Below are positions 6,001 to 46,800 of a stretch of DNA of 64,000 nucleotides, piece by piece. The notes beneath the pieces are model-generated. The model worked only from the letters and a program-made list of their open reading frames with translations, did not search any database and had not been told where the DNA came from. How positions within the stretch are numbered: the first letter of the stretch is position 1; every line of letters starts with the position of its first letter. A program made the position numbers and the translations under genes. Source of the DNA: Owenia fusiformis (Eukaryota; Annelida; Polychaeta; Sabellida; Oweniidae); NCBI GenBank assembly GCA_903813345.2, contig CAIIXF020000004.1, positions 5,101,525 to 5,165,524 on the forward strand, given 5' to 3'.

Positions 6001-8118
6001 CAATTTCGGTACCCCATAAAACTTTGGTAGACACGAGTGTTGCAGGATATGATGTTCCAAAGGGAATACAGGTAATACTCACACACTAACTAAAAGATGA
6101 ACTGTGTAACCATTTAGATTAAACATAGTTCTCCCTTTGGAATAGAAACCAAGCAATCGTTTTTTAGTTTTAATGATTTCATAGAAATGTATTTCAAATC
6201 AAAAGGATTAAGCTTTACCCACAGTTAGTATTTAATAATTTCATGTTCTTATCTTTTCGAATTCGATGGTTTGGACGAACATATTTGCGATGCACCACGA
6301 TCCCTCATTGTTTCCTGATCCTTGGCAGTTTAAGCCAGAACGTTGGTTGGATGATGATGGTAATCTGGTATCTCTGGAGGAACGAAATAAGTGAGTAATT
6401 ACCTACCTATTGTATTGTTCTAGATTGTATTGATCCTTTTTTCAAAGTTTATCTGTGACTTTTTGTGCAACAGAATTGACAGTGCAATTGCACTATCTAA
6501 ATAACACACGTCGACGACTAAGTCATCACTGGAGAGGTTAAGCTACCGTATAAAATCCAAAACGCAACTTAAAGGGTTCCGATTAGCATCCCGTATAAAA
6601 ACAATATGGCGGCTCCAGGCGAATCAACTGGATCAGTCCATTTTTAAGAAATAAGGGGAGTTCTGTAAAATCCAGTTTATTGAAATTGTCTTTGAGATAA
6701 AGTAATCCGTTTATAATGATTTTGAAAACGTTATCCAAAGAGTGATTGCGTTCAAAGAATACAAGTACAACAGCCAATATAAATCCTTGTATTAGAAACC
6801 GGTTTGTCTTGCTTTGTTTCATTTGTAGGATATTTCATATGCCAAGCTGTGTGCTATTACGTTATGGGGAAATTTAGATGCCAATTTTTCCTTATTATAC
6901 ACAAATAGAAGATCCTGAAACTTCACCCATAAATGTGGAATTGATTTGTCAAAATAAAAATCACCCTTTTATAAATGTGTGACGATCTATAATATACTTA
7001 TGCTATATAACAGTTAGAGGTGTTGACACAACGACCTCGAACCTGTGAACCCTTGAGTATTATTCCGGGATCGGGCCTTTTATACTAAACGGTGAGCAAC
7101 ACCAGAAACGAGCGTTCGATTTGCTAAACGATATGCGTCACCCTTTAAACGTATCAATCGGTCCTATACAAATACATGTAGAGTTCACACATAAATAGCC
7201 GTTCAGCTCTAGTGTTTGTTTAGACTACACCATAGCTTGTAATGATTACATAGTATCCCATTGATGAAGTTCAATAGCTGGTTTTCTAATACATATTTTA
7301 AACGAGCTCGTTTCGTAAGATTATTGGAGTTAAATCATGCGTAACATACATCATCTTCTTCAGAAAGAATTATACTCTGCATCGAAATCAAAATTGCAAG
7401 GATAGTATTCAACAGACATGAGTATAATGATTCCCGTTGATAGCAACGTGAAATTTTAAAACCTCCCGTTCTAAACACGCAACATTGAAGTTGAACGGGT
7501 ATCTGAAGTAGACTAAAGCGATACAATCCTATATTGATTCAATGTACTTTGCGTTTACGTATACGTTTTGAAAAACCGCATTTGCTTAACCTCTCCACTT
7601 TCTGTTGAACAAACTTGGAAAAATCATAGTTACCCAACCTCAATATCATAAATATAAATAATAACGTTATTCTATGATTCTTAACATTTGGGATTTTAAG
7701 CTTGCAATATTTTACACAACCTAAACGTGAATGGAAAATATTAAAGTGATGCATATGTATGGGCGATCCGTCGTACCTTAGTTTGTTTTTTGATTTTATA
7801 TGCAAGCTTAGATTCCCTGATATACAGAAATGACAAGAACGTAAAAGTTTGTACATGTTTGTACTCGAATCATTGAATGAGAAGAATTTTATTCATATTT
7901 ATTTTAGAGCTATCTCATTTGGAGCTGGTCGACGTGTTTGTGTCGGGGAACAGTTTGCAAGAACCAGATTATTCCTGTTCTGTGCTACATTGTTGCAGAA
8001 ATTTACGATCAGTCCACCAGATGGCTCTCAAAGTCCGTCACCTGATCCACGTGACTTTCCTCTTGGAATTGTACTCCACCCTGTGCCATTTCAAATCAAG
8101 GCAATAGCGAGACAATAA
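20..8118 (+). CDS. Cytochrome P450, CYP2 clan, multi-exon
   Basis: Haem-thiolate monooxygenase expected on the endoplasmic reticulum membrane. Exons read: 20-311, 2868-3130, 3711-3923, 5705-6071, 6266-6390 and 7908-8118 (stop TAA). The N-terminus is a hydrophobic anchor followed by a basic stretch and the proline hinge KIPGPKGIPIFGN. Later hallmarks are the I-helix GAGFTTT, the K-helix ExxR in EVLRY, FKPERW, and the haem loop FGAGRRVCVGE with its cysteine ligand. About 490 residues is normal for the family. Phases show that a short exon (length 3n+2) is missing between 3923 and 5705. Micro-exons 4835-4845 and 5253-5272 both fit the frame and have AG/GT borders, but neither is proven. The exon at 6266 has no AG before it (the sequence reads ttcg). 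The gene may be functional or just starting to decay. Substrate is not predictable; CYP1/CYP17-like relatives are likely from general resemblance. Confidence 0.88.
693..1434. repeat. 742-bp long inverted repeat (foldback or MITE) in P450 intron 1
   Basis: The left arm starts AAGGTGCCATGATACTTAAC and the right arm ends with its reverse complement. Arms of about 340 bp match with scattered differences and meet near position 1062. No coding capacity is visible. A clear target-site duplication was not found. Confidence 0.85.
1778..1960. mobile_element. Truncated copy of the CACTGGCGGATCC element family
   Basis: Begins CACTGGCGGATCCAGAA and continues with G-runs and 'ggcccaaaa' motifs as in the intact element at 3355. 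No matching right terminus was found, so it is a fragment. Confidence 0.55.
2664..2717. repeat. Perfect short hairpin
   Basis: GATGAGTATTTTGTTCAAAA is followed by its reverse complement after about 10 bases. It lies in P450 intron 1, within a stretch flanked by diverged 'actggcggcc' and 'ggcgccggt' sequence, and so may be the core of a small MITE. Confidence 0.65.
3355..3607. mobile_element. 253-bp MITE, ACTGGCGGATCCAG termini, 5-bp TSD
   Basis: Terminal inverted repeats [C/T]ACTGGCGGATCCAG and CTGGATCCGCCAGT[A/G] enclose a G-rich, 'ggcccaaa'-type body. The direct repeat GTCCT flanks it at 3350-3354 and 3608-3612. It is non-autonomous and lies in P450 intron 2. Confidence 0.75.
4650..4830. 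repeat. 38-bp minisatellite, about 4.5 copies
   Basis: The motif ttcttcaccatccattac recurs at 4656, 4694, 4732, 4770 and, diverged, near 4808, a constant 38-bp step. It lies in P450 intron 3. The short open frame across it is just the repeat read through. Confidence 0.85.
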
Positions 8119-12347: not shown

Positions 12348-12743
12348 TAGTATACAGAAATACCGATAAGGTAAAAGTTTCTTATTTAGAAACTCAAATC
12401 ATTGAATGAGTAACAAATTGTATCCATATTTATTTTAGAGCTATTTCATTTGGAGCTGGCCGACGTGTTTGTGTCGGGGAACAATTTGCAAGAACCAGAT
12501 TATTCCTGTTCTGTGCTACATTGTTGCAGAAAGTCACGATCAGTCCACCAGATGGCTCTCAAAGTCCGTCACCTGATCCACGTGACTTTCCTCTCGGAAT
12601 TGTACTCCATCCTGTGCCATTCCGAATCAAGGCAATAGCGAGACAAAAAACAAATCGTGAGGTCTAAGTAATGGATATAAGTGGTTCACATGGAAATTTA
12701 AAACATCCTTGGTGTATTTTTGTATCAAAATTCGATACTATAA

Positions 12744-23200: not shown

Positions 23201-26200
23201 AAATAATGTAAAAGGGGGATAACTTACAATCACAGTATATCCTCCGAATTGTTTCACAAGATCATCATCTTTTACACAATCTGAGGGGTATGGTTCAGTT
23301 TCACGTTCGTATTTTTTCTGCAAAATGAGGTCACGTATTGAAGAAAGTACTGCTTATAAAAAGCGTAAAAGTGAAAAAGCAATTGCAATCCGGAGTATTT
23401 GAATTCAATTTGATTTACCATGCAAACCTGAAATTAACTTTTACACCTGCTCTCATATATTGAACGAATGAAATACCTGTACATTACAATAATCCATATC
23501 ACGCAAATGGTGATCAACAAGAAATGGGCGCTCTTCACTTATTTTTGATCAACCCTCGTATAAACTGAAACGTAATTAAAAACTGTTTGATTGGCGTCAC
23601 TTACTAAGCGCAAACGTATGACCATCTCGTTTCCAACAGAGGCAGTTATGCCATCGTTCTCGGGGTACGAGATGATAGAGCTATCGTGAATAGCTACCCT
23701 GGTGCCATACGTGGGGGAAAACAATCCAGTGTACTCGTCTCGCTCAACGTTAAGCGTCAGTCTAAGACCTGAAATGCATATTTATACGAACAACGTTTCA
23801 TTAAAAATACATGTTTATAAAAGTTTGACAAACTAATCGGAGCTCATATTAAATGAAACGCGTCTCTTGATCAGATGATTAATATCATTTTGCGAGCAAT
23901 GTTGCTTATCCTATGCGGGCTCCTGTGCAGTGAAAGGTACAAGTAGTCTAAAGGTTCATTTGGAAGGTCTATATTCCATACAAGCAAAGGTGAATGCGAA
24001 ACGAGCATCGTATTAATAATGTTATGACTGTCAAATACCATAACGGGATCCAAAATTGGTTGTTACAAGGGGTCTTTCTCCCCTCGGTTTGTTAATCACA
24101 CTATTCCAGGTGTAGCATTTGCCATAGTACTTGTTGTAAGTTTCCAACCAATGATCACTGCTCCTTTGAACAAAAGAACACACGGAATGAGTACATATGA
24201 TCTACAGATTATATTTATCATACGGCGAATTAATCAATCAAATTGAATCAATAAAGGCACCGGCGGAGCCGGGGGGTCCAGCACCCACCCCCCCCCCCCC
24301 CCCCCCCTGGGTGCCAGAAAAATGTTTGGGCCCAAAAATTGTTTAGGGGTAATTCATCAAGAAAATTGCCCTTAACTTTTCAAAATTTGGGTCCAAATTT
24401 GGGCCCAAAATTTTTTTCGCGGAATTTGTTTTTCAGATTTCAGTTATGGGCTTGTTGCTTCTCAGATCCACCCCTGAAAAGAGTTTCTATATAGCTTTGA
24501 AATCTCGCTAATTCTCGTTTTTCTTGTGGTTTTAAGAGATTTCACTAAAAGTAGATGTCGTTGCTTAAAATCTTATACGCTACTACAATTCTAATATTGG
24601 GTAGCTGAATTTTGAGTTTGTTGAAAACTCGACCTCTTATTCAGAGAGTAGATGAGGGTCTCCTTTAAAGCCGCATTCATTAATCAACGTGGATAGGTGA
24701 TCGCATTATAGTAATTGCACAGGGTGATCAAGCTTTTTTGGCTCACCGCGTATTTATTTGCGCGGCATTGCTGTCGTAAAAACTGGATGAAATAACGGTG
24801 TTAAATGATTGCCATTCTGGTAATTCTAGTAATTCATTAAATATTCATTAATGTCTGTTTAGGGAATAGTATGGCTCTATAAAAGTAAATTAGAAAACAG
24901 TTAGCATATGTTTCCTAAACAATTGATTCATTGTTACCATAAAAGGATTTATTATAAAGTTTGCACCAAAAAACATGACCTGTGAGTGAAACGTGGTGCG
25001 CCGGGTATATATGGATCTTATATTTTATACTCCAGTTTCGTTCTACTATGTCGACAAATAAACGATTTTTGCATTGCATAACTTTATTTTGTTATAATTA
25101 TCTATTTACTTTTCCCAGAACTTTATTTTTGCGTTGGATCTCATAACAATTGACACCATAATTATCTCTCCCGCGTACCTCTTTTGTTTCGTACTGGTTC
25201 CATCATCCTTTATCTGAACTATTATACATAGATGTAAGAGGAGGAAAAAACCCAGAGCCTAGAGACGACAGATATAATTACGTCTCTTGCTTACCACGTT
25301 TGTTTGAATTTTCACCGGCTCGTTAGTATTTCCTTACATTTTTCTTTATTTTGATGTGAAATAACAATACAAGCTATAATATTGATTAACACGGCAGAAA
25401 TCGAAGCGTATTTAGAAAATTTTGAAACCCCCATTAAATGACGTCATTTGTCTGTCGATTTAACCTGAGACTAACATAAAAATTATGTTAGCCTCAGATT
25501 TAACCAATCAGCGACGATGACTTCTCAATACAGATTTACATTAGAGACACATGTCTTCTCTAACCCTGGGGTTTCCCTCCCTATTCATGAATGTGATCTT
25601 TTACGCCAGAAACAAAAATTCAAAACATATTCATTTTGTTTCTTTCACATTTTTAGGAAATATCAGGGGGCTCGAGCCCACCCAGGCCAGTGGCCTGAGA
25701 GGGAGGTCAATTTCCCTCTCTTTGTATGCAGTCCGAATCCAATTATAAAAGTGCATAGTGATCAGGTGATATGTCGTATGAAAACATATTTGTTCAAATA
25801 ACAATTAAAAGCTATCAATAATTATCAAATCAAATTTTATGACATTAGAAATTAATCTGATCAAATCATAAATATTTCACATGGTATCTCAAAATAAAAG
25901 ACAATATAGAAAATTCAGGGCATTAGTCACAAAAGGGGATGTGTTGAGGCTACTTCAGGTCAAATAGTGAAAAGATGCTATGCATTATTAATTGCACGTC
26001 AATATTTATTTTGGCAAATAACATTAGCTGCCATTTTCTCTTACTATTACACTGCCTGAAAACGTAACATTATTTATGTTTCTCATTATAAAGACATCAG
26101 GTTCATCCTCACCAAAAATATCTTTCTATGCGTTTCTTTTATTAGTTTTGATTGTTATTCCATACATGTAATACTATGTAAGCGAGTCAAGAAAAGACAA

Positions 26201-29200
26201 TTTAGAAACTAACCTGTTACAGTTCTCTCCATCAAATGTACAGAGAGCCACCAAGTCTGATAAATTGTGTCCATATTCGTCTAGCTGCTCCACAGTCGGC
26301 GAGGCTAAACCAAATATATCGCTCAAATCCTCCGCTTCGGCTAGTCTCAGTATTTCAGCATAGTTATTTGGGTCTTTGATCCCCATTAATTTCGACTGTT
26401 CAAATTGGAAAGGGACGTCATACCCTGGATCTTCTCCGGATTCCTGGTCCATTTCCTGTTCCGAAGACTCATATTCACTGTATTCATAAGATTCATAATA
26501 GTCGGAGCTTTGAAAATTTGGATCGGTGTAACTCTCAGTTGGGTAGGTGTCGAAGTCCATTGGATCGGCGTTTGGGTCAGTTGGATAGCTATCTGTGTAG
26601 ATTGGGTAAGTATTTGTGCTAACTGGATCAGTATTGGTGTCAAATGAGTCTTCGATGGTGTCTGTTGGATCAGTATTGGTGTCATACGAATCGGTGGTGG
26701 TGTCTGTTGGATCAGTATTGGTGTCATACGAGTCAGTTGTGGTGTCTGTTGGATCAGTATTGGTGTCATACGAGTCAATGGTGGTGTCTGTTGGATTAGT
26801 ATTGGTGTCAAACGAGTCAGTGGTGGTGTCTGTTGGATCAGTATTGGTGTCATACGAGTCAGTGGTGGTGTCTGTTGGATCAGTATTGGTGTCATACGAG
26901 TCAGTGGTGGTGTCTGTTGGATCAGTATAGGTGTCATACGAGTCAGTTGTGGTGTCTGTTGGATCGGATACATATGAATCGGTGGCTTCACCACCACTAC
27001 CACCAGCCACTTCACGTCTCACTCTCCTGCCATTGTCATTCGTATCGTCGATTGGCTCAACAGAATGGCCATCTTCAAGTGCAATATATTCATCATTTAA
27101 TGAATGAGGGTCGTCTGCTTCATTTTCCGGGAGTGATCCATCGAAAAATGTGTGTTCAATTTTAGTAGAACCAGAACCCTCATGTTCAAAAGCCAGTATA
27201 TTGTTGACGGATTCCATTGATTTGGTTTTGACTCGAGAGATTTCGAATTTGTTCTCGTGCCCCTTCAAAGCATTATTTTCTTTAGACATTGGACGCTGAA
27301 TTGATTTCTGTATCATATTTATATTTCTTTTCTTCCTAGATGTCTTGTCTGAATTCTGGATCTGGTTCTGGTTATTAATTTCATTTTCCGTCGTATCTTG
27401 TTTCTCAATGATTTCGTTTGCTGCAACAATGAACGGAACAGCATTCAAGTAATAATAACATGTTAAGTTTAATTCACTATCAAATTACTGTACATGCTAG
27501 ATTTTGAAATAAAATATAAGTATCAGGCCGGTAACCCCCCCCCCTCCCCCCGGCAAAAATTGTTTCAAAATCATGCAGTTTCGCCGCCAACGTAGTCAAA
27601 TGTCTCCTCCTGTCCCAATTGGCAAAAGCTGGCTACGGGCCTGACAAATTCCCTTTTTGTACTAAAACTTCACATCATGTTCACATGATAAGTCTTACCA
27701 GTGTCATTGTCTAGTTCTACGAGGCTGTTGAACATGGTTCCTTCTATTTTACTTCTTCGCAACATATTCATGTTGCATATAGTCACTGCAGGAACCTCCA
27801 TGAATGTCCTGAAATTATTCAACTCAATATACACCATGTTTACGAACAAAATTGAACTACATTTTTTCAACCTTAATTTGCATGAAATATCATATTGTAA
27901 AAATGTTACGTTTTATTAAATATAAATTTCAATCAAGACTATATAGTAGCCCGTTCAATGGTCACTTTTTCTTTAATAACTTTTTTAATTTTCAGTATTA
28001 TCAAAATCTGATTACATATTTGAAAACTAGAGTAAAATTCTGACATACAATAAAATTATTTAAGGAATGTCTCTTAATTTATTGATATTATAGGCATTCA
28101 TAGTATGAGTGACGCAAATACATAATTCACCATTTTGTCTCATATTTTGTTCAAAAATGGCGGCATGTTTTGTGGTTTGAATGTTCAGTTGAAAGTTAAT
28201 ATCTAAAATGTCATAGGCTTATGAAGTCATGTGGACTGCTGCTTTGGTATGAGGTAATGACTGCAGTTATAACATTTTGTTTTAAATTGACTTGTATGTA
28301 TACCAGTACTTAAAAAGGTTTGTACATTGTATGTACAGCATATTGGTAAGGTCGCAGGACTTAAATTTTTTGACCATTCCATTGTTACTCGAAGTGGATT
28401 AGCAACCCTAGTTCGTTTAACCTGTGCAACTATAGGGTCATATTGCCACAGGTTGCAGTGTCTTTCCCAGTCACTCGCCTCTTAACCCATCCTTGGCATG
28501 CATGTGAATTGTTCTTCAGCTTTTCAATGGCCTCTGAGATGGCTGTTTGGAGCTCTTGAAAAGATTGAGGACCTACTCCTATCACACCCCGCACATTGGG
28601 GCGCCACCTTTTCACATCCTCTTGAACACAACCCAGAACATTTCAATATAGTTGATTTCATATACCCTTGAAGGGAGTTGACTTCTTGTATTTGATGATT
28701 GGTCAGTTGCTGCATTACATCAGGATTGTAACGGTGGCAGCATGGCCCTATAAGTCCTATGACAATCTTTAAATATTAACTTTCAACTGAACATTCAAAT
28801 TCACAAAATATACCGCCATTTTGAACAAATATGAGGCAAAATGATGAATTATGTATTTGCGTCAGTCATACTATGAACGCCTATGATATCAATAAATTAT
28901 GAGATGTTCCTTAAATATTTTTTTTGCATGTCAGAATTTCACTCTAGTTTCCAAATACTTTTCCAAATACAGACTTTGATAATACTGAAAATTAAAAAAG
29001 TTATTAAAGAAAAAGTGACCATTGAACAATTCTGTCCGGGCTACTATATTATTTTATATCTTTTTATAATTAAAAATATCAAATCCATTTCCCAATGTAG
29101 TATTAAACAATCCTGTATTTATTTATTTATTTCAAATGATCACGATATGGAATACGACAGTGTCATGTCTAGTCCAGCTACAGGCCTCCTTGACCCCCCC

Positions 29201-37589: not shown

Positions 37590-37850
37590 TGTATGCCACA
37601 TGGTAGCCATTCTTGTATGTGATTGGTCTATCTATGGTCACATGATAGAATTCATGGTCACATGATAGCCATTCTTGTATGTGATTGGTGTATCTGTGGT
37701 CACATGATAGAATTCATGGTCATATGATAGCCATTCTAGGTATGTTGGCCTATACATTGTCACATGATATCCATTCATGTGTAGGGTCACATGATATCCA
37801 TTCTCGCCTATGATTGGTCAATTCACAGTCACAAGATAGCCATTCATGTA
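37590..37850. repeat. Degenerate tandem repeat of 'cacatgatagccattc' units
   Basis: 'ggtcacatgatagccattct' and 'tatgtgattggt' alternate in units of about 60 bp, four to five copies, just past the importin stop codon (3' UTR side). Confidence 0.7.
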
Positions 37851-37878: not shown

Positions 37879-40800
37879 TTAGAATTTGAAGCCTTCAGAT
37901 GGTATTGATGCCTCTGGATCAAACTGATAACCTTCTTGGGTCTCTGATGGCACCAGATTTGGATCACCAACAATCTTGAACAAAACAAATTTCATTTAAA
38001 ACATTGTGTATGCAATGTGGAAATTAAATAATTAAAGTTTTGTGAACGAATTGGATTCAAAAGTTCAATGCATGGAAAAATTATTTATTCTTAAGCTGTA
38101 CACCCCTAATAGGCAGCACCATCGTGCAGCACTATACAGCACTGTAAGATGGTGCTGTTTACAGCTGTTTACAGCGCTATACAGGACTGTAAACAGTACA
38201 GTTTGAGCAATGCGCTGTACTGCAATGTACATTGCTATTCTAGCATCACCTGTTTTGAACAGCGTAGTACAATATGTTTTTTTTACAGCGCTGAACAGTA
38301 TTGTTTTTGAAAACAGCCATGTACAATACTGTTTTTTACAGTGCTGTCAAGCACTGTTTCATAAACAGCGCTGTTAGTTGCTGTTTGAGATTGGCAGTGT
38401 AAAACTTGTGAAAGTTGTAGAATTTATAAGAAATATTTTAGCTGATGAAATTAAATACCATCCAGAAGATAATTTATGAGCTTTAAAATAATATATAACA
38501 ACAGCACTTACATCATCGTTCTCTGAGAAATACTGATCAATGATTTCGTAAGCAAGTTTGTAGATTTCGACATTTTCATGGTTTTGCAAGTATTCAATCT
38601 TGTCTAGTCCTGAAACAAAGAAATAGGTTTCTTCAATTTTACTTTACTCAGAAAATGATATATACATGATCCTGATGCAGCAGTTACGAGTGTACAAAAT
38701 ATTGGTTTTGGCCAAAAGAAGTAAGTAAATCAACAAATATAGAGGGATGGAGAATATAACATATAAACAAAATTAATTAATGTTTCTGTTATAATCAGTA
38801 TGATCATTTTGACAAAACTCTTTGATAAAAAATACCATGTATTCTAACTTAGACTATAATTGTATATGATTGTATGCCGATGCACTACAGTATACTGTGT
38901 GTGTCAACGTTTTAAGTCTTAAATAATAAAAATAATAATAAATACCTCCACATTCTTCAATTTTATTGGTAACAATTTCAATTTCATTTCCTGCCATTTT
39001 TAGAATATTATTTAGTCCATCCAGTACAACTTGCACAACTTGGGCATCTTTAACATTTAACAAAGCACAGAATGGCTCAATCACACCTTGTTCTACTATG
39101 TAAGCAACCTGCAATTAGAATAAATAAATCACACCTTGGTCTTCTTTGTAAGCAATCTGCAATTAGAATAAATAAATCTCATCTTGGTCTACTATGTAAG
39201 CAACCTGCAATAAGAATAAATAAATCACACCTTGGTCTACTATGTAAGCAACCTGCAATTAGAATAAATAAATCACACCTTGGTCTACTATGTAAGCAAC
39301 CTGCAATTAGAATAAATAAATCACACCTTGTTCTACTATGTAAGCAATCTGCAATTAGAATAAATAAATCTCATCTTGGTCTACTATGTAAGCAACATGC
39401 AATTAGAATAAATAAATCACACATTGGTCTACTATGTAAGCAACCTGCAATTAGAATAAATAAATCACACCTTGGTCAACTATGTAAGCAATCTGCAATA
39501 AGAATAAATCACACACGAGTTTACTATGTAAGCAACCTGCAATTAGAATAAATCAATTACACATGAGTATACTATGTAAGCAACCTGCAATTAGAATAAA
39601 TCAATCAAAAATGACTCTACTATGTAAGCAAACTGCACACATAAATCACACATGACTCTACAATGTCATCAACCTGCAAATCTGAATCATAAATATGATG
39701 TTGTTATACTTTTTAAATAGTTAAAAATTAATAAGTCAGTTTTATGAATGAAAAATACAGCATAACCAACTACCATGTTTTTGAACTATTTAATTAGCAA
39801 CAATAACTTTGACAAACATGCAATAAGTTATACGGTTTGTATGTATCTTAATACTGTTACAAGTTCTATCTTTATATAATCATTAATTGTAACGTTGAAT
39901 GAGATATTTATAAGTAATTCAGAAGAATCTGAGAGTATTAAAAATGTAAATAAAAATATTGATGCTATACCTGTTCTTTTTTGCCACTTATGGTTAGATT
40001 ACTGATCGCCCATGCAGCCTCTTTTTGGGTCTGGAACTCTCCCTGAATTAAACATAGAAACATGAATGGTATGTAACATATGTCACAATAACAAAAGAAT
40101 GGTATGTAACATATGTCACAATAACAAAAGAATGGTATGTAACATTTGTCACAATAACAAAAGAATGGTATGTAACATATGTCACAATAACAAAAGAATG
40201 GTATGTAACATATGTCACAATAACAAAAGAATGGTGTGTAACATATGTCACAATAACAAAAGAATGGTATATAACATATGTCACAATAACAAAAGCCAGG
40301 TAAAGAAACCCATTTTTTAAAGCTTGTACATAAACACAAGTGTTGAATTATGGTCCTCTATGGATTAGTTCTCCCATTTGCACTGTATACTTGGCTGATT
40401 GAGTATAAAGGTATACAAAAAATAATTGGAATTGGAAAAGTGAATTGATAGCAGGAAAGTAATCCCGAGGGTCGAAATACTGCATGCCCATGTACAGGTT
40501 CTCTTTAAAACTTGTAACTCAACCTCCATATTACTTCATGACTATATATGGAATATCATTTCAATTAGGTCTCTGGCAAAGTGAATTGAGAGCAGGACAG
40601 TAATCCAGGGGGTCAAAATATAACACAATCACAAATAGGTTCTCTTAATAAGTGTAACTTAATCTACCAAGTAGAAAAATTTCCAAAAGTATCAGGAATA
40701 TTTGGAAAATCAACAAAGAAAATATCCTATCCTAATGAAACCCATTTTAGCCAAGCACACAACCCAAGAAAGGCTTTTGTTAAACTGAAGCTTATTCCCT

Positions 40801-43800
40801 AAGGATTTATGATAGAGATGTTTATGATGTGTCTTGCATTTTCGTAGGACATTATAGCTGATATCGTATGAGACAATATCAAGACACACATCAGGCCTGT
40901 AGCCAGGATTTGACAAGGGGGTTCACTTTTTGAAAAATTCCAGGGTTCACTATTAAGCATGATTTTGAAAGAAATTTTAGCCAGGGGAGGTTCACTCAAA
41001 CCCATAGAGCCCCCCCCCCCCCCCTTGCTACGGGCCTGCATATGGGATAAATTAATATCTGGGAAAGTTTCAAAACATTGAATATACATTATTAAACCAT
41101 TTCATAGAACAAAATAAACATATTATTTTGAATACATGTATCTTGATAATCAAAACAATCCTTGTGATTTCCCAAACAGTGAAGCAGGCAGTTGAACTTA
41201 AACAATGTCAGAATTATTTTCCTTACCCTACTGAGATGGTGTATAACCATGGGGATAAGCTTTGCATCAATGACTGCCTGGACTTGCTGTTGGTTTCCTG
41301 CTGTAATATTGGAGAGAAACCAGACAGCTTCCTGCAAAGTATAACATACATAATGTGTATTCTAGTATCTGATTGGTCAATTTAAGGTCACATGACTGCC
41401 TATGGCTTGCTGTTGGTTTCCTGCTGTAATATTGGAGAGAAACCAGACAGCTTACTGCAAAGTATAACATACATAATGTGTATTCTAGTATCTTATTGGT
41501 CAATTTAAGGTCACATGACTGCCTTGACTTGCTGTTGGTTTCCTGCTGTAATATTGGAGAGAAACCAGACAGCCTCCTGCAAAATATAACATACATAATG
41601 TGTATTCTAGTATCTGATTGGTCAATTTAAGGTCACATGACTGCCTATGGTTGGTGTTGGTTTCCTGCTGTAATATTGGAGAGAAACCAGACAGCTTCCT
41701 GCAAAGTATAACATACATAATGTGTATTCTTGTATCTGATTGGTCAATTTAAGGTCACATGACTGCCTATGGCTTGCTGTTGGTTTCCTGCTGTAATATT
41801 GGAGAGAAACCAGACAGCCTCCTGCAAAGTATAACCAACGTAATGTGTATTCTAGTATCTGATTGGTCAGTTGATGGTCAAATGACTTGCAGTGCGTTTC
41901 CTGTTACTATAGCAACAAGCTGACATTATAATACAAAATACCTACCTTATTAATTTTTTCTTTTTGGTGTGACAAAAGTGCTGGGAACTGACTCAGGGCG
42001 TTACAGTCGAGAACAACCTGCGTCTGTTCATCTGTTCCAGTAACTATGTTACCAACAGCACGCAGCGCTGCAGTCTGTAAAACAGCAAGAATATCATACA
42101 TCAAATCATTCATATATTTCTACAGCAAAGAATGGCAGGACAGATAAAATAAATGCCAGCCTATGTAGGCTTGTGTAGTCTTTATAGGCTTGGATAAAGT
42201 GTTTGTATTTTCTGTACACATCATGTCATATTTTGGTATTTGTACCCTTAAAGTTTATGTTCACCGTCTAGTTTCAATGGGTAGTTGTACCAATGCTGAA
42301 TGGTCATCCAACTTGTTCTTGAACTGGTCAACATTTCTTGTTTGGATAACATATGAAGAGCAACAAATATAGTACACAGATATGTTCTTCTTTTTTGTTG
42401 TTATCACTATGCTATAAATACACTCAGGCTCCAAGCTCAATATTACACTTTCTGTATCCAGTGATAAGTGACAATGGAGACTATATTCATCATAAAAGTC
42501 TTATGTGCACTTTTTGAGGAATGTGCACTCTTTAGAGAGAATATGGTAACTAAACAGCCTATTCAACTTACCTGAACTTTGACCTCTGAATGACTTAGTA
42601 GGGGTACCAACATTGGGACTACTCCAGACGCAATGACCATCTGTATCTGATTATTTCCACCATCTGTGAGATATGACAGTGCCCAAACAGTATCTACCAG
42701 AATCTGCAAGATTAATACATGTAGTGCAATATTAATACATCAAGTACAACAAGATTAATACATTAAGTACATGGTTAAAACATTAAGTACAAGAATTATG
42801 CATTAAGCTTTTGTAATGGTAAATTCTAAAAAAAGTTGCATTTACAAAGTGTGACAATTTTGTTATGACACTGATTATGCTAATGCTGGTCACAAAAAAT
42901 CCCCGCAAAAAACAAAATCCAACAACCTGGTGACATAAAAAATAATATTCGTAGTGACAGAAGTGTGAGAACAATCTGTAAAAATGCCAATCAGTACACC
43001 TAAGTCCATACAGTTGACCTAAGTTCTAGAACATTATCAATCTATCCTCCATACTGCATATTAAACATTAATCTGTGTTACATTCTGAAATTGGCTACTT
43101 ACATTAGTGTCTGTGTGAAGAATCAGTTTGTTAAGGGCTGGAAGTATTTCTTCTATGGTATTCACTGGGGGTGGGGGTTCCTTGTTCCTACATAGGTTTA
43201 CGATCACCCAAGTTACATTACGTAGAAATGACAGCTGTGTGTCCGGATTGATGAAGTAGAGTAGAGGTTGCACGACACCTAGGCTTATCACGTAGTCTCT
43301 ACATTGGGGGCCATCACCTATAAATCAAGATAACATTAGTTTATGTTGTTAATAGACTTATCACGTAGTCTCTACATTGGGGGCCATCACCTATAAATCA
43401 AGATAACATTAGTTTATGTTGTTAATAGACTTATCACGTAGTCTCTACATTGGGGGCCATCACCTATAAATCAAGATAACATTAGTTTATGTTGTTATTT
43501 TTTTATTATGGCAAAACAACTGATCAGTGTTCAGTGATCATCAAGGGCATGGCATAAAATTCTGTAACAATATGATATGAATATGATTTAAAGAAAAACA
43601 AAAATAATAGCGTCAGGAGATTGACTGTCAGCAGATTATTTTCTGGTTGATTTAAAGGCCCCCTCTAAACATTTTGTAACTGTTTTGGCATCTGAGCCTA
43701 TCCTAATAGAAAACTGAGAATATTTTATTGTGACACAGAACTTGAAATCTCTCATTTCTCTCTCAAAAGTACTTTAAGGCAGCTATTATTGCAGGACCTC

Positions 43801-46800
43801 CACAATCTCAGCATTCAATACTTTAAATGTTATTTATCATTCATGGCATTTCTGCAAAATTGAAAATTCTCTGGAAAAACTTTATTTTCCAGTGTTTTTG
43901 TCAAATTCCATTTTTTCCAAAATTAACATGGCATTAACATGCAAAATGTCAACGCAATTTGTAACAGACATCAACCGTCGATTGACAACCGCTGTCATGA
44001 ATAAATGGAAACCGTAATAATATGTCCCCACATTTTTGTGGTGAAATAAAAACTTGAATTTTTTTACTGTACAAGAAAATTCTAGACCTATGGGAAACCT
44101 GTCACGACATAGCACTTACCTTTTTTTCTCCTTTCTAGATAACATACTAATGTAACATATTAGCTATAACAAATTCTACATAGGAATTATCCAATGTATA
44201 ATGTATAGCACTTACCTATGATGTTTCCAAGTGCCCACACTGCTTGCTCACAAACGTTTGTATGCTCTGACTCTAGGAGTCGTAGAAAGAGTGGCACGGC
44301 ACCAGAGCCTACAACTGCTTGTGTTTGTTGGGATGTACCTGAAGCTATGTTAGTCAGTGCCCATGTTGCTTCAAATTGGAGTGAGGGGCTACAAAATACA
44401 CCATTTTAAAGCTGAATTTTTATTACATGTATTAAGATAGATTGTTGCTTCAAATTAGAGCTGGGGCTACAAAATACACCATTTTAAAGCTGAATTTTTA
44501 TTTCATGTATTAAGATCCAGTGTTGCTTCAAATTAGAGCTGAGGCTACAAAATACGCCATTTTAAAGTTGGATTTTCATTATATACATGTGGTAATCACC
44601 CATGTTGTTTTAGATCGGAGCAAGGCTGCTTAAAACACTAAACTTAATTTTCACTTTATACATATAGCAAGCACTCATACTCATTTTCATAGTTCGTAGT
44701 TTTGAATAGTCACAAAATCCTCCACACTTCTGTGCAGAGCACTGATCTTGCTTGTTGAAACAGAGCATTGATCTTACTTGCTCGTTAAAACAGAGCACTG
44801 ATCTTACTTGCTCGTTGCAACAGAGCATTGATCTTACTTGCTCGTTGAAACAGAGCACTGATCTTACTTGCTCATCGAAGCAGAGCGTTGATCTTACTTG
44901 TTGAAAAAGAGCACTGATCTTACTTACTTGCCATCGCAGCTCAAGCAGTGTACTAATATGGGAAGAATACCAGACGATATCAGATCATCTATAGGAGGGT
45001 TACGATCACTAGACAATAATTTCCTGAAAAACAACAATGGTAAGTTGAAAATTTTAAATTGTTATGAACCTTTTCTCCTCAGTCTTAGTACCCTCAGTTT
45101 CAAGCATACAAATCTATGTAATCTCATTGCTATTGCTTCAATTTTAGACAGTAAAATTGTTTGTATACTGCAACTAGATTTTTGAAAATATCAGAATTAT
45201 GTGGTTTTATTTCAATAGCCCTTAGATATATGGAGGATATGATTCATAAGTGAAATGATTTTTAGCCAAGTATATACAAATATCATATCATTCAAGTAAA
45301 TCATAGGATATTGTTTTTTTCCATAGTTATAGGTGTAATTCACTTTCTTATCCTGTTATCACCTAAACTCATAAATCATAGGATAAATAGTTTTTAATAG
45401 GAGGGACAGAATACGAATTTACTCCAGGGAAAATTTGATATTGGCCAAGGAAAATAAGATATTGACCAAGGGTGACAGCCTAAGTGTCAATATGATATTT
45501 TACGAGCCCAATATCATATTTTCTTGAGGAAAATATTCATATTGCACCACGACCATCAATAACCTACATATTCCATGATATTTTCTCTGAAACTTATTCA
45601 TCTCCAAGTTTGATCAGTCATCACACAATGATGGTGACATATAAATGTAAATTATATTTTTCAGGTAGAGAAACATTTGTCAGAAAGTAGCAATTTTGAC
45701 AACCTTATGTCTCTAATTCTAGGCATAAAATGATACGTCTGAGCTCTAGCCCCGTGTTTAAAAGGCTCAAAACTAACCTAGCCGCTTGAACAGCACTTAG
45801 TTGAATAGCTGGTTCACAACTTGCGGCATTTTGCACAATTGTCTCTAAAGATTGTTGAATCGGTCTATCACTTTCATCAGAATCAAAGTCTGTACTATCT
45901 TGAGCTGGGACATTACGCCTTTTTAATAAAGATTCCTCGCGTTTGTTTTTTCTGAGTTCCACTGTCACTTCCTGTCGACGTCTTCGCATTTCCTGGAAAA
46001 AATCACATGATATAGTCATCATGTTAATGTAGTTCAGATCTTTATACCATGATACATCAATACCAATCTCCTTCATACATGAAAATTACACTAGGTAGCT
46101 ATAGGTCTAGTACATGGGAAACAAAGTGTGATAACGAGCAAAGTTTATGTGTGTAGACAAGTGAAATAGGACACAGGGTGAGGATACAGAATACTACAAA
46201 ATAATATAAAGGTAACTTAAATGTACCATAGATACATAGGTCTGATTTCCTATGTTCAGCTTGAGGAAGTTGCTTAGATATTTTTCTGTAACTTAGCTAA
46301 CCTCTAATTATCATCATAATCAAAGTAAGGTATCCCGTCCCGTATAGTCCTGAGAATGTCCCGATCTGTTGCCTGTACGTTTACAACATGGAAGAAAAAT
46401 CTACGCCTCCCATTTAAAGGACCTATCTCAATAAACTTAAGTATATTTTAGCATTCTTTTTATGTATTTGAAGTCCCTATTGTATGGGTTCATCGGAAGA
46501 ACGAGGACATTTTCCTTTTTCATCGAGAAAAACCGCACCTCTTTTTAAGATGGGGGTAAGTTTTAGAAGGGGAACCCACGTAATAATATCTCAATCTACT
46601 ACTGCAAAGCCCGGATGTACAAATAGATTGAGGCATGTTGATGGTTGAAACAAGTTAAATAACACGCAGAAACTGCAATATTTCTTTCTCCTGCAGATAA
46701 ACCCATACGATCGTGGATTCAAATTTCAAATACATAAAAAAATCTAAAATACTAAGAAATTTATTGAGGTAGGTCATTTAGCGTAGAAGGCGTAAGATTT

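Follow-up and report, generated by a model that had tools for sequence, protein, structure and literature searches.

Tandem repeats whose unit spans an exon-intron border have been described gene by gene in a cephalochordate, amphioxus. The name 'mirage' was given to them after work on amphioxus Adh and was then used for the same structure in the globin genes (PMC3087553). The accessible parts of the published accounts name Adh3, the globins BflGb6 and BflGb9, troponin C and PGBD5, of which PGBD5 was added as a case, and troponin C cited, in a second paper (PMC3902484). According to the same parts, mirages affect both 5' and 3' borders, many of their repeats keep AG or GT, their length changes between haplotypes and somatically, reverse transcription polymerase chain reaction (RT-PCR) indicates normal splicing, and the genomic mechanism is stated to be unclear (PMC3087553). 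Here we report arrays of this kind in the annelid Owenia fusiformis, both in the importin alpha-3 gene of a 64,000-nucleotide stretch (the window; contig CAIIXF020000004.1 of assembly GCA_903813345.2, positions 5,101,525 to 5,165,524) and in a sample of other genes, where they were counted against a null. With a probability of about 0.72 we take them for mirage-type minisatellites, in which a border-spanning segment was tandemly duplicated and expanded in the intron, duplication of exon edges being frequent and the resulting decoy splice sites being tolerated.

The importin alpha-3 gene was mapped on the minus strand from exon 2 to exon 12 (37879..45992 of the window). Its 11 exons, separated by GT-AG introns, join into a single open frame of 497 amino acids, of which residues 2-497 match importin alpha-3 chains of the PDB (E = 2.5e-247). 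Tandem Repeats Finder (TRF) returned 66 rows for the window, and 12.2% of the window is covered by arrays with a period of at least 10 bp, so that it is rich in minisatellites. The exons and the arrays next to them are the following, all on the minus strand:

45992-45778, minus: exon 2
45023-44928, minus: exon 3
44747..44925, minus: exon 3 donor array, 30 bp x 6.1, beginning 2 bp inside the intron by TRF; decoy donors (first intron base) 44897, 44867, 44837, 44807, 44777
44388-44216, minus: exon 4
44364..44581, minus: exon 4 acceptor array, straddling, 78 bp x 2.8, 25 bp exonic; decoy acceptors 44466, 44544
43317-43103, minus: exon 5
43280..43497, minus: exon 5 acceptor array, straddling, 73 bp x 3.0, 38 bp exonic; decoy acceptors 43390, 43463
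42703-42572, minus: exon 6
42707..42807, minus: exon 6 acceptor array, abutting and non-straddling, period 20 bp (43 bp also fits), starting 3 bp inside the intron
42074-41946, minus: exon 7
41331-41227, minus: exon 8
41270..41887, minus: exon 8 acceptor array, straddling, 122 bp x 5.0, 62 bp exonic; decoy acceptors 41454, 41576, 41698, 41821
40042-39971, minus: exon 9
40064..40295, minus: exon 9 acceptor array, non-straddling, 33 bp x 7.0, 21 bp inside the intron
39108-38946, minus: exon 10
39079..39637, minus, with diverged far copies to 39694: exon 10 acceptor array, straddling, 48 bp x 11.7, 30 bp exonic; 12 decoy acceptors, 11 with intact AG
38609-38512, minus: exon 11
37974-37879, minus: exon 12

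The acceptors of exons 4, 5, 8 and 10 each lie inside a straddling array that reaches into the coding exon. These four arrays had been proposed in an initial annotation made from the letters of the window, and TRF confirmed them together with their unit lengths (the 79 bp unit being 78 bp here). The fifth proposed array, at the donor of exon 3, is present with its 30 bp unit, but its straddling is weak. The exon match was convincing in only one of the five donor-bearing copies (a local score of 9, which 0 out of 2000 randomly drawn intron stretches attained) and within chance in the other four, which makes this donor a weaker case than the acceptors.

By similarity 20 acceptor copies were identified in the importin gene (2, 2, 4, and 12 at exons 4, 5, 8, and 10), and 19 of them keep the AG. 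At exon 3 a scan for GT gave five donor copies; one more copy, visible in the sequence, is without GT. This amounts to 24 usable decoys, close to the 'about 25' first estimated. The retention of AG resembles that of many amphioxus mirage repeats, and the unit spans the border in the same way. By TRF the arrays are made of head-to-tail units and fall under the usual definition of minisatellites (units of some 10-100 bp or longer). This type of structure is already known, and the view that no such system had been described did not hold. Whereas the amphioxus arrays are accompanied by RT-PCR and by records of length change, those of O. fusiformis are known from the DNA of a single assembly. This assembly has 12 contigs of chromosome size (numbers 1-12; 11 lengths of 32-62 Mb, C2 being at least 23 Mb long) and 34.9% G+C in the 279 kb sampled, while amphioxus has 19-20 chromosomes and about 41% G+C. 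A GFP-family search matched neither the assembly nor any control genome, and mitochondrial COX1 and mollusc haemocyanin gave no match, the latter in no control either; a muscle myosin is closest to chains from scallop. In a search of this assembly the array regions of exons 5-6 and of exon 10 matched only themselves, and a second haplotype was not found. Indirect support for undisturbed splicing comes from the conserved frame of 497 amino acids across the real sites.

Within the importin gene four of 11 arrays straddle a border, compared to 1.16 expected under random placement of the founder unit (P = 0.018). This excess is modest, given that the gene had been picked for its odd looks, and other genes were therefore sampled. 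The assembly (498 Mb in 525 contigs) was searched for gene families, and 52 loci with 179 exons (279,332 bases) were chosen without regard to repeats, the choice of loci to fetch preceding any repeat analysis of them. Set 1 consists of chaperonin, adaptin, and armadillo genes (20 loci), set 2 of myosins (18 loci), and set 3 of proteasome subunits (14 loci). The fetched loci do not include single-exon genes, the outlying parts of long genes, or a number of hits to Arm, adaptin, chaperonin, and myosin. Exons were modelled from family homology hits and splice-site scores; model exons shorter than 40 bp or lacking a homology hit were not counted, nor were TRF rows with a period below 15 bp or a score below 60. 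A model exon that proved to be a decoy (7606-7697 of locus L008) was removed before arrays were counted. Under the null, one founder unit of the observed length is placed randomly in the same locus, placements wholly within an exon or engulfing an exon are rejected, and a unit counts as straddling when 8 bp or more of it lie on either side of a border. One wholly exonic array of set 3 was excluded from the test.

In all sets together 18 of 73 arrays straddle a border, while 4.65 were expected (P = 6.5e-8), an excess of about fourfold, and 54 of the 73 are purely intronic. The enrichment at borders that the initial annotation had asked to be measured genome-wide was thus found in a sample. Straddling arrays occur in 15 of the 52 loci, at nine acceptors and nine donors, and the expectation of a peculiarity of one gene was not borne out. 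For units of at least 45 bp the figures are 15 of 28 against 3.96 expected. When loci were dropped one at a time the worst P was 4.2e-6, and the result is therefore not carried by any single locus. Altogether 18 of 358 sampled borders (5.0%, 95% confidence interval 3.0-7.8%) carry an array, which places the importin gene, with four of its 22 borders (P = 0.023 at this rate), at the high end without making it unique.

Of the 18 straddlers, 17 share at least 20 bp with a stop-free homology block, and the remaining one, in L009, shares 5 bp. The block listed for one L008 array falls within the array itself, although this array also overlaps the block belonging to the real exon (7884-8036). In L021, L028, and L038 it is the position of the exon edge that is uncertain. 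Leaving out four loci of doubtful exon edge, 14 straddlers remained (P = 6.7e-5). Two loci carry large border arrays that each hold the donor of an adaptin-family exon: about 34 copies of 82 bp in L012 (3387-6153, gene-strand coordinates) and about 23 copies of 151 bp in L013 (1489-4952, gene-strand coordinates).

Straddling and intronic arrays were also compared with each other. Ordinary intronic minisatellites (variable number tandem repeats) have tandem units of 15-500 bp and are partially homogenised, like the border arrays, and they are abundant here; unlike the border arrays, they include neither part of a mapped exon nor a real splice site. The copies of straddling arrays are more alike (median identity 95% in 18 arrays versus 89% in 54 intronic arrays, P = 0.027), so that straddling arrays do not look older. 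This speaks against longer survival of border arrays as the sole reason for the excess. Nor was a preference of minisatellites for a certain G+C seen in introns, intronic arrays having the composition of plain intron (33.9% versus 33.3%; 34.9% for the entire sample). The exonic share of the unit has a mean of 0.62, which is above an even spread (Kolmogorov-Smirnov P = 0.011, n = 19 with three uncertain arrays omitted).

Several observations weigh against a general excess at borders. The bulk of the signal sits in set 1 (12 of 36 arrays versus 2.35 expected, P = 3.2e-7); neither set 2 (3 of 22 versus 1.14, P = 0.095) nor set 3 (3 of 15 versus 1.17, P = 0.084) is significant alone. The difference in copy identity fades for longer units (P = 0.056 and 0.137). 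A count by windows in set 1 did not reveal an excess, a copy being found nearby in 12 of 172 border windows and in 2062 of 14512 intron windows; two of the 12 positive border windows were at the decoy exon later removed. This comparison was set aside because an intron array of n copies covers n-fold more bases than its founder, yet it is a result against the naive form of the claim. Finally, the exon borders were placed by a simple model guided by homology, and a complete count might give a smaller excess.

These points bear most directly on the explanation that there is no border preference at all, minisatellites arising anywhere in a repeat-rich genome, exonic ones being purged, and some straddling by chance. 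The high repeat content of the window and the predominance of purely intronic arrays in the sample agree with it, as do the window count and the compatibility of sets 2 and 3, each taken separately, with chance at the 5% level. However, the null already omits exonic and exon-engulfing placements, and 18 straddlers were nevertheless found where fewer than five were expected. Sets 2 and 3 when pooled also exceed expectation (6 of 37 versus 2.30, P = 0.017). We therefore regard chance straddling as unlikely.

The initial annotation had proposed a process linked to transcription or splicing, such as R-loops or replication stalled at splice borders, as the maker of the duplications. In line with this, donors and acceptors are both affected, and the excess looks narrow, confined to the border and the first 50 bp. 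Among 51 non-straddling arrays (three of the 54 intronic arrays crossed the region edge and were omitted) nine lie within 50 bp of an exon where 4.5-5.1 were expected, and six lie at 50-200 bp where about 12 were expected; the numbers are small in both classes, and the comparison is descriptive. On the other hand, the exonic share of the unit is not fixed but varies from 0.23 to 0.90, and a paralogous importin gene (L016) is without arrays around its five mapped exons. That arrays grow into the intron and leave the exon intact had been taken as a sign of a directed process. Geometry explains this feature: when a border-spanning segment is copied in tandem and the gene keeps working, the copy that continues into the remainder of the exon counts as the real one, and all others necessarily fall in the intron. 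A process of this type is doubtful as the explanation of the arrays.

The decoys might also be retained by selection, as backup or regulated splice sites, or be steps towards new introns, as the accessible text on the amphioxus globins proposes (PMC3087553). The model of intron gain by Rogers, cited there, starts from a tandem duplication of AG/GT and multiplies splice signals as is seen here; in contrast to that model, the units here hold intron and exon of an existing border, and a new intron was not seen. The splice signals are well preserved. In the sample AG or GT was kept in 109 of 111 decoy copies, all of which had at least 23 of 30 matching bases, a requirement that favours intact ones, and there is therefore no sign of decoy inactivation. 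Of the 19 acceptor decoys of the importin gene with intact AG, 14 score above the real site or no more than 0.3 below it in a simple weight matrix, while the five exon 3 donor decoys all score below the real donor (3.3 versus 4.9). Intact signals are, however, expected anyway in young, homogenised copies. The use of any of the 24 usable importin decoys is predicted to result in a premature stop, and unit lengths are not biased towards multiples of three (5 of 22). Selection for the decoys is consequently improbable.

An assembler that multiplied or misjoined repeats has a precedent in one amphioxus array of a draft genome, misassembled according to the accessible text (PMC3087553), but it is a very improbable source of arrays that are spread over 15 loci and whose copies differ among themselves, those of the 48 bp exon 10 unit sharing 32 to 45 of 46 bases with the real one.

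We thus return to mirage-type minisatellites as the explanation. Some 20-260 bp of local sequence across an exon-intron border would be duplicated in tandem, and the array would then expand and homogenise within the intron, probably by ordinary unequal exchange or slippage. Exon edges would be duplicated more often than intron interiors, whereas duplications wholly inside exons would be purged by selection. Such frequent duplication at exon edges is in our view the likeliest cause of the excess; the duplication itself might be due to R-loops, nucleosome edges, or damage linked to splicing. As a general rule, exon context and proximity decide between duplicated splice sites. The spliceosome would here use the copy that continues into the complete exon and lies closest to its partner site, by exon definition or proximity, and for this reason the decoys would be tolerated and the arrays would be close to neutral. 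The exon 5 acceptor illustrates the discrimination involved: each of its two decoys shares 66 of 67 bases (30 of intron and 37 of exon) with the real acceptor, and what selects the real site must therefore lie outside these bases, for instance deeper in the exon or in the spacing to the next donor.

Some further repeats and duplications were observed. The array after the importin stop codon (37597-37849) and the 122 bp exon 8 unit (41270-41887) have the motif TGATTGGTC...GGTCACATGA in common, perhaps a dispersed repeat caught in both. At 26174-27484 (minus strand) an open frame of 436 residues contains a 42 bp tandem repeat in the reading frame (with repeats such as DTNTDPTDTTTDSY). It appears to be a coding minisatellite, in contrast to the intronic ones. 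The pair of near-identical exon-like open frames at 7834-8118 and 12410-12667 (plus strand) suggests a tandem gene or exon duplication; presumably they represent the end of a cytochrome P450. Outside the window, at G000 C9:37986009-37994334 (minus strand), a single stretch of the myosin head (from about position 18 to 84 of the profile) was matched twelve times in succession. These are probably tandem copies of one exon, serving as mutually exclusive alternatives in a muscle myosin heavy chain.

In a literature search of limited coverage border-spanning arrays were not found reported outside lancelets, although others may be in print. For an earthworm metallothionein the accessible text mentions minisatellites in introns and duplications of exon 4 whose purpose is unknown, and does not describe border-spanning units. 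Other papers returned by the search concern melanocortin receptor introns, a glycosyltransferase family, chicken MUC2, pines, and prawn lectins. An enrichment test against a null was not found in the accessible parts of the amphioxus mirage accounts (PMC3087553; PMC3902484). As far as the literature was searched, the taxonomic reach and the measured border excess appear to be new.

More generally, a standing mutational process may be at work in this genome that makes and expands tandem duplications preferentially at borders, leaving about one in 20 splice borders with a string of decoys, some identical to the real site for at least 30 bases on each side. We propose this tentatively and would put it at somewhat under even odds. 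If true, the spliceosome must discriminate between copies through exon context alone, and mirages, far from being an oddity of lancelets, would represent a type of genome change that recurs in distant animals. The arrays are natural experiments on splice-site choice. They also carry a warning for gene prediction, since decoy exons were called in L008 and L012 by our own simple model. Should the excess hold across the whole genome, exon borders would be a mutational hotspot in a second lineage and mirages would gain a measured frequency.

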